Shown here: positions 28,522 through 32,597 of the stretch, piece after piece
Position numbering within the stretch: the first letter of the stretch is position 1
How the letters are laid out: every line of letters begins with the position of its first letter
Source of the DNA: Pantoea allii
GTDB taxonomy: Bacteria > Pseudomonadota > Gammaproteobacteria > Enterobacterales > Enterobacteriaceae
NCBI RefSeq assembly: GCF_002307475.1
Contig: NZ_NTMH01000022.1
Span: 124,001-188,000, forward strand
Length of the DNA: 64,000 nt
Reading direction: 5' to 3'
Made by a program: the position numbers and the translations under genes
Notes under the pieces: model-generated
What the model was told of the DNA's origin: nothing
Database searches by the model: none
The model's input: the letters and a program-made list of their open reading frames with translations, nothing else

Positions 28522-30038
28522 GCTTCTTGATTCATCTCTGGATTAACAAACTGCCACAGCAGATCAAATAAGTCTGATGCCAGCATGCCGCGCGTGCCCC
28601 GCTGCTCAGCCAACGTATCAGCGGCAGCACCGTGAACAACGCAACCTGCACAGGCAGCATCAAACAGCGCCAATTTTTGTCCCATTAACGAGGCAATAAT
28701 ACCGGTGAGCACATCACCCATACCACCCGATGCCATCCCGGCATTACCCACATCGGCAAAAGCCATTTGCCCGCTTTCACTGGCGATAATCGTGCCCGCA
28801 CCTTTTAAGACAGCCACACCACCATAGCGTTTCGCCAGATCCCGAGCAGCTTGTAAGCGGTCACTTTCAATTTCGCTGGTTTTGACGCCCAGTAAGCGAG
28901 CAGCCTCACCAGGATGCGGCGTTATAATGCGATTCTGACGTTTCTCCGCGCTTATTGCCAGCAAGTTAAGTGCATCTGCATCCCAAAGCATGGGCTTTTC
29001 AGTGCTTTTAACCTTTTCGAGTGCCTTTTTGCCCCATTCCCGCTGTCCCAGCCCCGGCCCAATTGCGATAACGTCAGCCCACGCGAGTGCTTCATCCAGT
29101 CGCGCCTCGGTTAACGCATCCACCATGATCTCAGGGCGCGCAGTCAGGATGGGGAGAATATTATCTTTGTGAGTAAGTACTCGCACCAATCCACTTCCCG
29201 TGCGCAGTGCGGCTTCTGCCGACATCCGAATAGCGCCTGCCGTCCCGCTGTCGCCGCCAATCACCAGCAAACGGCCCTGATCGCCTTTATGGGATGTCGC
29301 CTTACGCGGTGTCAGCCAGTGAGACAGGAAACGCGCATCGTAGCGGGCCATGGGCGGCTGCTGTACCGCCAGAAAACCCTGTAATCCCAGGTCGGCAAGG
29401 TAAAGCGATCCAATACAGTCACGGGCTTTGCCGGTAAGCTGCCCGGGTTTCAGCGCAATAACGCTTAACGTGTGCGTGGCATTCATGACGCTTCCCGGCG
29501 TATTTCCCGTTGCTGCAGACAGGCCGGAAGGAATGTCCACCGCCATCACCGGCGCGGCATGCACGTTTGCCTGGTCTATCAGGGTGGAAAAAGGGTCGCC
29601 GGGCGCACGGCTGATTCCCGTCCCCAGTAACGCATCGACGATAATATCGACCTTTTCGGGCCAGACCGCATGAGGCGCATGGATCTCACCGCCCGCTTCA
29701 AGCCAGCTGCTTCTGGCGGTTTCTGCTTCTTCGGGCAAGGATTTGCTGCCTTCGCAGGCCAGCAGCGTTACCTGTTTGCCTGCGGCCTGTGCCAGCCTCG
29801 CAACGACGTAACCGTCGCCCCCGTTATTGCCGGGTCCACACAAAACCAGCCAGTGCTCTGCATCCGGCCAGTGCGCACGAATATGCTCATAGACCGCCTG
29901 ACCCGCACGTAACATCAGTTCATACAGGGTGATGCCGAGTGCATCTGCCCCCTCACGCTCAAGTTGCGCCAGTGCCTGCGCAGGCCAGACAGAGTGTGGT
30001 AAGCTGTCGGCGTTTCTCTTCGAATTCTGGTTAGTCAT
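28518..30038 (-). CDS. nnr: Bifunctional NAD(P)H-hydrate repair enzyme Nnr
   Basis: 506 residues. The N-terminal YjeF_N epimerase half (about 1-220; [36 protein letters not shown]) interconverts R and S hydrates; the C-terminal ADP-dependent dehydratase half (about 225-506; [41 protein letters not shown]) restores NAD(P)H. First gene of the long superoperon to hflC. Its start codon (30036-30038) overlaps by 2 bp the divergent start codon of queG; GAGAGGG lies about 8 nt upstream. Confidence 0.95.
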
Positions 30039-31176
30039 GTCATACCCTCTCGATCTTGATCAACTCGCTCAACACATTAAACAGTGGGGACGCGATCTGG
30101 GCTTTCAGCAGGTCGGCATTGCCGACACCGATCTCAGCGCTGAAGAGCCGCGCCTGCAGGCCTGGCTGGACAAGCAGTACCATGGCGAGATGGAATGGAT
30201 GGCACGCCACGGAATGATGCGTGCCCGTCCGCATGAACTGCTACCCGGTACGCTTCGGGTTATCAGCGTTCGCATGAACTATCTGCCTGCCAAAGCCGCT
30301 TTCGCCAGCACACTGAAAAATCCCCAGTTAGGTTATGTCAGCCGCTATGCGCTGGGCCGTGATTACCACAAAGTATTGCGCAATCGACTGAAAAAGCTTG
30401 GAGAAATGATTCAGGCCCACTGCGGCGAAAGCCATTTTCGGCCGTTTGTTGATTCTGCCCCCCTGCTTGAGCGTCCTCTGGCGGTGAAGGCGGGATTAGG
30501 CTGGACTGGCAAGCACTCGCTCATTCTGAACCGGGAAGCGGGCTCATGGTTTTTCCTGGGTGAACTGCTGATTGACCTGCCCCTTCCCGTCGACACACCT
30601 CAGGAAGAACAATGTGGACGCTGCGTGGCCTGCATGACCATTTGCCCGACAGGGGCCATTGTCGCGCCCTATACGGTGGACGCCCGACGCTGCATCTCCT
30701 ATCTGACGATTGAACTTGAAGGTGCCATCCCCGAAGCGTTGCGACCACTAATGGGGCACCGGATTTATGGTTGTGATGACTGCCAGCTCATCTGTCCCTG
30801 GAACCGTTATGGACAGTTGACAGATGAAGAGGATTTTTCACCTCGTGCAGCACTGCATGCGCCAGAGCTAACGGCGCTGTTTCAGTGGGATGAAGCCAAA
30901 TTCCTGCGGATTACTGAAGGCTCTCCCATCCGCCGTATCGGCTATCAGCGCTGGTCACGCAATATTGCGGTGGCGCTGGGCAATGCGCCCTGGAGCACTG
31001 AGATCCTCACCGTACTTGAACAGCGACGAGGTGAAAGTGATTTGCTGGATGAGCATATTCAATGGGCTATTACTCAACAACAGGTTAAGCGGAAACGCGA
31101 TGAGATTGACGTTCAACCCGCGCAGCAGAAAAGGCTGGTCAGGGCTGTTGAGAAGGGATTACCCCGTGATGCTTGA
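30037..31176 (+). CDS. queG: Epoxyqueuosine reductase QueG
   Basis: 379 residues, E. coli length. Cobalamin-dependent iron-sulfur enzyme for the last step of queuosine synthesis in tRNA. Two [4Fe-4S] sites are visible: CGRCVACMTICPTGA and YGCDDCQLICPWNR; the N-terminal half carries the cobalamin and tRNA binding region (RYALGRDYHKVLRNRLKKLG, VDSAPLLERPLA). Start at 30037 (MSYPLDLDQ) agrees with the family; no good Shine-Dalgarno is visible because the upstream bases are nnr codons on the other strand. Confidence 0.96.
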   Translation: MSYPLDLDQLAQHIKQWGRDLGFQQVGIADTDLSAEEPRLQAWLDKQYHGEMEWMARHGMMRARPHELLPGTLRVISVRMNYLPAKAAFASTLKNPQLGYVSRYALGRDYHKVLRNRLKKLGEMIQAHCGESHFRPFVDSAPLLERPLAVKAGLGWTGKHSLILNREAGSWFFLGELLIDLPLPVDTPQEEQCGRCVACMTICPTGAIVAPYTVDARRCISYLTIELEGAIPEALRPLMGHRIYGCDDCQLICPWNRYGQLTDEEDFSPRAALHAPELTALFQWDEAKFLRITEGSPIRRIGYQRWSRNIAVALGNAPWSTEILTVLEQRRGESDLLDEHIQWAITQQQVKRKRDEIDVQPAQQKRLVRAVEKGLPRDA

Positions 31177-31212
31177 TTGCGCAACGTTCGCAAGCTATAG
31201 ATTTCCACATCC

Positions 31213-31221
31213 TGTGAATAA
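31213..31221 (-). promoter_or_regulatory. DnaA box (TTATTCACA)
   Basis: TGTGAATAA on +, i.e. TTATTCACA on -, full match to TTATNCACA. Confidence 0.65.
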
Positions 31222-31304
31222 AAATAAAAATACCTTGTCATTCAATCGTAATAACACAAGTGACAGAATCAAATAACATAATGAAATATTATTAATTCTT
31301 TATA

Positions 31305-31317
31305 TATCATTAAGTTA
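31305..31317 (+). promoter_or_regulatory. IHF-like site
   Basis: TATCAT-TAAG-TTA against WATCAA-N4-TTR, one mismatch, with AT-rich DNA on its 5' side; between the first and second DnaA boxes. Confidence 0.45.
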
Positions 31318-31373
31318 AATAAAATTTGTGTTATTTTGCAAATAAGGCTAGCGTCTGGCTTAATCCATAAAGC

Positions 31374-31382
31374 TGTGGATAA
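31374..31382 (-). promoter_or_regulatory. Strong DnaA box (TTATCCACA)
   Basis: Perfect R1/R4-type box. With flanks it reads ACAGAGTTATCCACAG on the - strand, 16 bases identical to the surroundings of box R4 in E. coli oriC (from memory). Confidence 0.85.
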
Positions 31383-31440
31383 CTCTGTTTAAAAAAGTTT
31401 TACGGAATGGCAAAAGTGGCGTGGACAGTAACCTGCCTGC

Positions 31441-31449
31441 TGTGGATAA
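31441..31449 (-). promoter_or_regulatory. Strong DnaA box (TTATCCACA)
   Basis: Second perfect box, same orientation and same flanks (CAGAGTTATCCACAG on -) as the one at 31374. Confidence 0.85.
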
Positions 31450-31516
31450 CTCTGATTGTCGTGCTGAAGATCTTCATTCAGCCTGTAACACTGAGACGAA
31501 GTAAGTGACAAAAAAC

Positions 31517-31592
<76 letters not shown>

Positions 31593-31618
31593 ATAGAAGG
31601 GCACTACTAAACACATTT

Positions 31619-31694
<76 letters not shown>

Positions 31695-31719
31695 ATAGAG
31701 GGTACTGCTAAACATAATT

Positions 31720-31795
<76 letters not shown>

Positions 31796-31948: not shown

Positions 31949-32497
31949 TTAAAGCTGCAAAAAGTGTTGGCGGTAGTACGCCAGCTCGGCAACAGACTCG
32001 CGAATATCATCTAAAGCCTGGTGCGATCCGCTCTTTTTGAAACCCGGAAGAATGTCTGGCTTCCAGCGACGAGCCAGTTCTTTCAGCGTGCTGACATCCA
32101 GATAACGGTAATGGAAATAGGCTTCCAGCTCCGGCATGTACTTAAACAGGAAACGGCGATCCTGCCCAATGCTGTTGCCGCAAATCGGGGACGTATTGGC
32201 TGGCACCCACTGCTGCAGGAATTCGATGGTCGCCTTTTCTGCTGCGCGATCGTCAATCTTGCTGGCCTTCACTCGTTCCACTAAACCGCTATGAGTATGT
32301 GTACGGACGTTCCATTCGTCCATCAAGCCCAGCTGCGCATCTGACTGATGAACCGCCATGACCGGACCTTCTGCCAGAATGTTAAGGTCGGCGTCGGTAA
32401 CGATAGTGGCAATCTCAATAATGCGATCGCGTTCCGGATCGAGTCCGGTCATTTCAAGGTCAATCCAAATTAGATTATTTTCGTTTCCAGTTGCCAT
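31949..32497 (-). CDS. orn: Oligoribonuclease
   Basis: 182-residue DEDDh exonuclease that clears 2-5 nt RNA fragments and pGpG. Motifs: [20 protein letters not shown] (Asp, Glu), [19 protein letters not shown], and [16 protein letters not shown] with the catalytic His and Asp. Start at 32497 ([11 protein letters not shown]) fits E. coli and has AGGT upstream; the frame extends 11 codons more to an ATG at 32530. Divergent from rsgA. Confidence 0.96.
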
Positions 32498-32597
32498 GCT
32501 GTTACCTGTGGTTGCTGAGTCGTCATTCATCGTGAATAAGGTGTATCATAGACGTTTTGCCCCCCAGGGCGAAATCCAGCTAAACCAGTGAGGGTGA

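Follow-up and report, generated by a model that had tools for sequence, protein, structure and literature searches.

In Escherichia coli, the main activity of the datA locus (at 94.7 min) is the hydrolysis of DnaA-ATP (datA-dependent DnaA-ATP hydrolysis, DDAH), and the titration of DnaA is secondary (PMC5835720). According to a review, DnaA boxes 2, 3 and 7, which share one direction, and the IHF site are essential, DNA bending by IHF is thought to unite the DnaA molecules on boxes 2 and 3 for ATP hydrolysis, and this hydrolysis needs residues R281, R285, L290 and R334 of DnaA; the same review puts minimal datA at 183 bp and also mentions a 262-bp region (PMC5742627), and the size stated in a 2026 paper is 187 bp (PMC13036160). 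Regulation of IHF at E. coli datA has been attributed to glyVXY read-through plus an unidentified factor, IHF and box 2 attenuate this read-through, and box 1 is called dispensable for DDAH (PMC10950094). Conservation of datA was reported among 59 E. coli genomes, with one base missing between the IHF site and box 3 in strain 536 (PMC4585315); by arithmetic, the spacing between boxes 2 and 3 of that strain would be 161 bp. As a kind of element datA is already known, and in the literature searched it is dissected in E. coli only, with no survey outside this species found; because that literature included few subscription papers, novelty is only weakly evidenced.

Here we describe a 340-bp interval in a 64-kb window (the whole stretch of DNA that was analyzed), which was identified as a datA counterpart, as the initial annotation had proposed, because alignment, gene order and spacing agree with those of E. 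coli datA. Judged from its sequence, this counterpart is likely to be a switch that turns off DnaA after each replication round.

Position and sites of the element

The interval and its surroundings contain the following features (positions in the window).

30034..31176, (+) strand: queG, with its stop at 31176; the constant neighbor
31177-31516: datA-counterpart interval, 340 bp, flanked by queG and three tRNA-Gly(GCC) genes
31201..31209, (+) strand: decayed counterpart of DnaA box 4, ATTTCCACA, with two mismatches; inverted and 12 bp past the box 3 start, as E. coli TCATCCACA
31213..31394, (-) strand: equivalent of minimal datA, from box 7 start to box 3 end, 182 bp (183 bp in MG1655)
31213..31221, (-) strand: counterpart of DnaA box 3, TTATTCACA, 161 bp after box 2 (162 in E. 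coli)
31222..31270, (-) strand: conserved 49-bp block adjoining box 3, from relative entropy over 66 sequences
31305..31317, (+) strand: predicted IHF site (IBS), TATCATTAAGTTA, with one mismatch to WATCAANNNNTTR; 65 bp from box 2
31374..31382, (-) strand: counterpart of DnaA box 2, TTATCCACA, by alignment with E. coli box 2
31386..31394, (-) strand: weak counterpart of DnaA box 7, TTTTAAACA, 12 bp before box 2 with a GAG spacer, as E. coli TTGTAAACA
31441..31449, (-) strand: counterpart of DnaA box 1, TTATCCACA, 67 bp before box 2, as E. coli ATATCCACA
31517..31795, (-) strand: three tRNA-Gly(GCC) genes, the glyVXY counterpart, transcription directed at the element
31949..32530, (-) strand: orn, placed as in the E. 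coli gene order

Beyond the tRNA-Gly genes lie orn, rsgA and psd (rsgA and psd identified by position and reading only), which is the order found around datA in MG1655, and the Orn protein is 99% identical to that of Pantoea ananatis LMG 2665, the nearest named one, which suggests a Pantoea-like organism. The element thus occupies the place of E. coli datA, between the glyVXY (tRNA-Gly) counterpart and queG; the tRNA genes, which are indeed transcribed towards it as had been noticed initially, lie 135 bp from box 2. Further marks of datA are over-initiation on its deletion and proximity to oriC; in the draft assembly, the element is on contig C20 and the oriC match is on a different contig, C39.

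Read from the tRNA side, the sites come in the order box 1, box 7, box 2, IHF site (which then reads TAACTTAATGATA), box 3 and inverted box 4, names that were given by order, direction and the length of the minimal element, without a printed reference sequence. The start-to-start spacings in the window and in E. coli are 67 and 67 bp between boxes 1 and 2, 12 and 12 between boxes 7 and 2, 65 and 65 between box 2 and the IHF site, 161 and 162 between boxes 2 and 3, and 12 and 12 between boxes 3 and 4. The arrangement that distinguishes datA, namely high-affinity boxes 2 and 3 in one direction about 162 bp apart, a low-affinity box 7 beside box 2 in the same direction, and one IHF site lying between the two high-affinity boxes, is found here with a box 2-box 3 distance of 161 bp, with box 7 at -12 and, on sequence, with an IHF site carrying one mismatch. 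The initial annotation had recognized this IHF-like site and three full-consensus DnaA boxes of one orientation, all on the minus strand, and these correspond to boxes 1, 2 and 3; in setting three boxes against the five of E. coli, it had overlooked the weak box 7 and the decayed box 4. The direct repeat that it described is 19 nt long with one mismatch and contains the 16-nt exact core, at a start-to-start distance of 67.

The interval carries the DnaA-box and IHF-site sequences and the neighborhood of datA and probably acts as datA does, by DnaA-ATP hydrolysis, since the flanking genes match, the DnaA of this genome retains R281, R285, L290 and R334, and both IHF subunits are encoded (alpha and beta each score above the family cut-offs). 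A predicted IHF-induced bend in the DNA that separates box 2 from box 3 would bring ATP-DnaA on boxes 7, 2 and 3 together; the assembled ATP-DnaA would hydrolyze its ATP, lowering the level of initiation-competent ATP-DnaA after replication starts. Two features were counted against this reading: the IHF site of the window has one mismatch, whereas the sites of E. coli and of the closest named relative (L010) match fully, and box 4, which is stimulatory in E. coli, has two mismatches here (a box with no more than one mismatch occurs at +12 in 18 of 66 genera). The basis of the present comparison is site sequences, spacing, gene order, conservation and the genes for trans-acting proteins; the binding of DnaA and IHF, looping, hydrolysis, timing in the cell cycle and any role of tRNA read-through would be as in E. 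coli, by analogy with the work on that species.

Conservation across the family and alternative explanations

A search of 295 family genomes with the pattern TTATCCACA-N138..168-TTATNCACA gave matches in 187 of them, and the reversed pattern gave three matches. By a hand tally, the pattern was present in 179 of the 192 genomes with 3.0 Mb or more and in 8 of the 103 smaller ones. Among the 150 places listed, the spacing was 161 bp in 91, 162 in 17 and 163 in 15; a few of these places are not datA (tandem repeats, some with spacings near 148, 156 or 167). Of 71 matches that were fetched, 68 adjoin queG and three have no queG in the stretch examined. A strict match was lacking in 13 large genomes. 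In ten of them, datA is present but its box 3 carries one mismatch; in G154, queG was not matched, and in G069, queG lies elsewhere and no datA accompanies it. In G032 (L114 1270-1510), queG has apparently lost its 3' end and is joined to the region before orn, with datA and the tRNA-Gly genes lost as well, for which a misassembly is possible. A strict DnaA-IHF-DnaA pattern was too stringent, being found in only 10 of the 295 genomes and missing the window because its IHF site has a mismatch. In a plasmid search, only the tRNA part matched among the 5 listed of 33 records.

In a pattern-free survey, 80 named loci were retrieved by Orn alone. The pair of boxes 2 and 3 was present in 61 of the 80 loci, at exactly 161 bp in 52 and at 159-164 bp in the other nine. 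The remaining 19 comprised ten loci of less than 4.3 kb at a contig end, one with an assembly gap (L057, rejected for this reason as a datA-less locus), and eight full-length ones in which queG was not found within the 3 kb examined.

The anatomy of the element was compared in 153 loci (the window, MG1655, the 80 Orn loci and 71 pattern-selected ones), of which 134 have the box pair, adjacent to queG in 131. Box 2 is of full consensus in the 131 queG-linked loci by selection, and box 7 was chosen by position only. At this position, the sequence ends in ACA in 131/131 loci and is never of full consensus, with one mismatch in 3, two in 112 and three in 16 loci; position 6 is A instead of the consensus C in 120/131, and box 7 is separated from box 2 by GAG or GAC in 124/131. 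Box 7 is therefore a site conserved as weak. An IHF site with 0-1 mismatch was found at offsets 58-71 in 103/131 loci; for five control stretches of equal size between the boxes, the corresponding counts out of 131 were 0, 1, 6, 13 and 13. When one locus per genus was counted (66 genera), 40 had box 1 at -64 to -68 with no more than one mismatch, and in 33 it stood exactly at -67.

These features bear on the possibility that the element is a passive DnaA sink, whose boxes titrate DnaA without catalyzing ATP hydrolysis. Three consensus boxes within 237 bp would suit such a role, and titration of DnaA is also known for E. coli datA (PMC5835720); the initial label of a DnaA-titration locus names the secondary activity of datA. 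Titration alone, however, leaves the fixed spacing, the conserved IHF site and a box 7 kept weak unaccounted for, which makes a mere sink improbable.

The tRNA-Gly genes might suggest another function, that of an attenuator mainly for the tRNA operon, in which DnaA and IHF block glyVXY read-through and the effects on DnaA are secondary. They are aimed at the element from 135 bp, and in E. coli such attenuation by IHF and box 2 is on record (PMC10950094). Across the 66 genera, the distance of tRNA-Gly from box 2 is less than 250 bp in 46 and 250-600 bp in four, and no tRNA-Gly was found upstream in 16 (two of these with less than 160 bp of upstream sequence), where various other reading frames occupy its place. 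As the element remains at queG in these 16 genera, and in the four with the longer distance, and as no terminator beyond the shuffled expectation was detected near the tRNA end, an operon attenuator is very unlikely. Not every datA locus has a tRNA-Gly close by, and across genera queG, rather than the tRNA cluster, is the constant neighbor. Box 1 is kept in 32 of the 46 genera with a near tRNA versus 8 of the 20 without. With datA function as the preferred reading, the direction and proximity of the tRNA genes would allow read-through regulation in the window. In three loci (L034, L036 and L055), copies of tRNA-Gly are separated by 1.5 to 2.4 kb, which looks like an insertion of DNA into the cluster.

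The genome contains 176 copies of TTATNCACA in 5.24 Mb (77 + 99), from which a Poisson estimate predicts about 0.001 same-strand triples spanning no more than 237 bp, and the 15-mer CAGAGTTATCCACAG has two copies genome-wide, both in this element. The total of TTWTNCACA in the 64-kb window is ordinary (6 seen, 4.24 expected, reached by 23 of 100 shuffles); only the clustering of DnaA boxes is unusual, not their number in the window. Chance clustering, with which the lack of TTWTNCACA enrichment across the whole window agrees, has a negligible probability given the rarity of such triples and, decisively, the identical place and conserved spacing in relatives.

The block beside box 3 and loci in other families

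When 66 sequences (65 genera plus MG1655) were aligned on box 3, columns -49 to -1 had a mean relative entropy of 0.39-0.90 bit by sub-block, compared with 0.10 in the gap between box 2 and the IHF site and 0.21 in that from box 1 to box 7; directly behind the IHF site the mean was 0.41, and beyond box 3 it was 0.38. The consensus of this block is GATC.CTTG...ttTtT.T..c..TTGAat..cAA.g..TTTTTatTT, in which GATC is exact in 36/66 sequences but not in that of the window. The annotated 17-residue yjeV frame of E. coli (L009 3393-3446) overlaps box 3 and the block; this ORF was rejected as the origin of the block, and yjeV may be no gene, because a start codon is at its place in 15/66 sequences, two of these with an internal stop. 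A Fis site, a CRP site and a second consensus IHF site were also considered, and none accounts for the block, for which, as far as found, there is no published explanation. It could serve as a concrete DNA target for seeking the missing IHF-timing factor (PMC10950094).

We tentatively propose, as a possibility rather than the likeliest outcome, that the roughly 240 bp of datA form a rigid nucleoprotein scaffold, more than a set of boxes with an IHF site, in which box 1 would be a fixed point 67 bp out, the block would dock the IHF-timing factor, and the bend would be a selected ruler, with the arm from box 2 to the IHF site held at 65 bp and the arm from the IHF site to box 3 varying by about a whole helical turn.

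The variation in the second arm was seen in family f8, which we take, as a guess, to be Kangiellaceae. In a search range that ended at 177 bp, the pattern was present in 14 of the 23 f8 genomes searched, and each of the 14 places was inspected. At every one, the best IHF match lies 65-68 bp away from the first box (with at most one mismatch in ten and two in four), and the arm from IHF to the second box is 106-109 bp in 13/14 and 100 in one. In the queG-linked loci with at most one IHF mismatch, the arm from IHF to box 3 is 96-97 bp in 94/104, and the f8 and enterobacterial arms differ by about one helical turn. The f8 loci share descent and therefore represent few independent events. Four places whose genes were read (names by reading) lie beside TRAP-transporter-like genes, one with a polA-like gene on its opposite flank, and not beside queG; box 7-like TTATGAACA occurs in 2/14, and the 49-bp block was not apparent in the 14 places. 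The f8 loci are non-syntenic and datA-like only.

Pattern matches outside the window's own family were mixed; they occurred in f3, f4, f5, f6, f7, f8, f9, f10, f11, f12, f13, f14, f21 and f23, and those read are from f5, f6, f8, f10, f11 and f13. The one f5 match has a spacing of 161 bp and lies beside queG, without tRNA. Both f11 matches have boxes 7, 2 and 3 at 165 bp, and the IHF consensus was not matched at the expected place (four mismatches in both loci); in the longer of them, L195 (G304), the order queG, tRNA-Gly, orn was recognized by reading, and it is possibly a datA without an IHF site. Several candidates were rejected: of the two f13 matches read (out of four), one is flanked by mutH- and rppH-like genes, a setting like that of DARS2, and the other has the same box layout; the one f6 match read has many GATC and resembles oriC; and the f10 locus read, with two matches, has nothing datA-like.

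Taken as natural variants, the datA counterparts differ in spacing (157 to 165 bp), in whether box 1 is kept or lost, in whether tRNA is adjacent or absent, and in alteration of the 49-bp block. They could be used to probe three claims made for E. coli: an optimised spacing, a dispensable box 1, and control of IHF release by read-through from the tRNA genes.

Comparison with oriC, DARS and datA

The resemblance to oriC box R4 pointed out in the initial annotation holds for R4 of E. coli, which has 15-16 bases in common with boxes 1 and 2 of the window, the box itself and the above 15-mer included, but the genome's own oriC match is without this 15-mer. A 9-mer ending in ACA, which we presume to be site C1, lies 12 bp before E. 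coli R4 with a GAG spacer and may be likened to the layout of box 7. The window element is without the mnmG/mioC context of oriC.

DARS1 and DARS2 resemble the element in being non-coding clusters of DnaA boxes, and DARS2 likewise uses IHF (PMC5742627). In the DARS cores, box I is opposed to boxes II and III (PMC5742627), whereas boxes 1, 7, 2 and 3 of the window face one way and only the decayed box 4 is opposed. Two further clusters of three consensus DnaA boxes (two +, one -) were observed elsewhere in this genome, with gene names by reading: one at G000:C32:114663-114983 (L187), flanked by rppH- and mutH-like genes, in a DARS2-like place, and the other within 40 bp at G000:C9:306442-306481 (L184), flanked by ubiG- and nrdA-like genes, which is probably the nrdAB control region.

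Compared with E. coli datA, the element has a full-consensus box 1, a distance from the last tRNA to box 1 that is 44 bp longer (judged from alignment positions) and no yjeV start codon, besides the mismatch in the IHF site and the decay of box 4. In common with E. coli datA, it has the gene order, boxes 1, 7, 2 and 3, the IHF site, the orientation, and spacings that agree within 1 bp.
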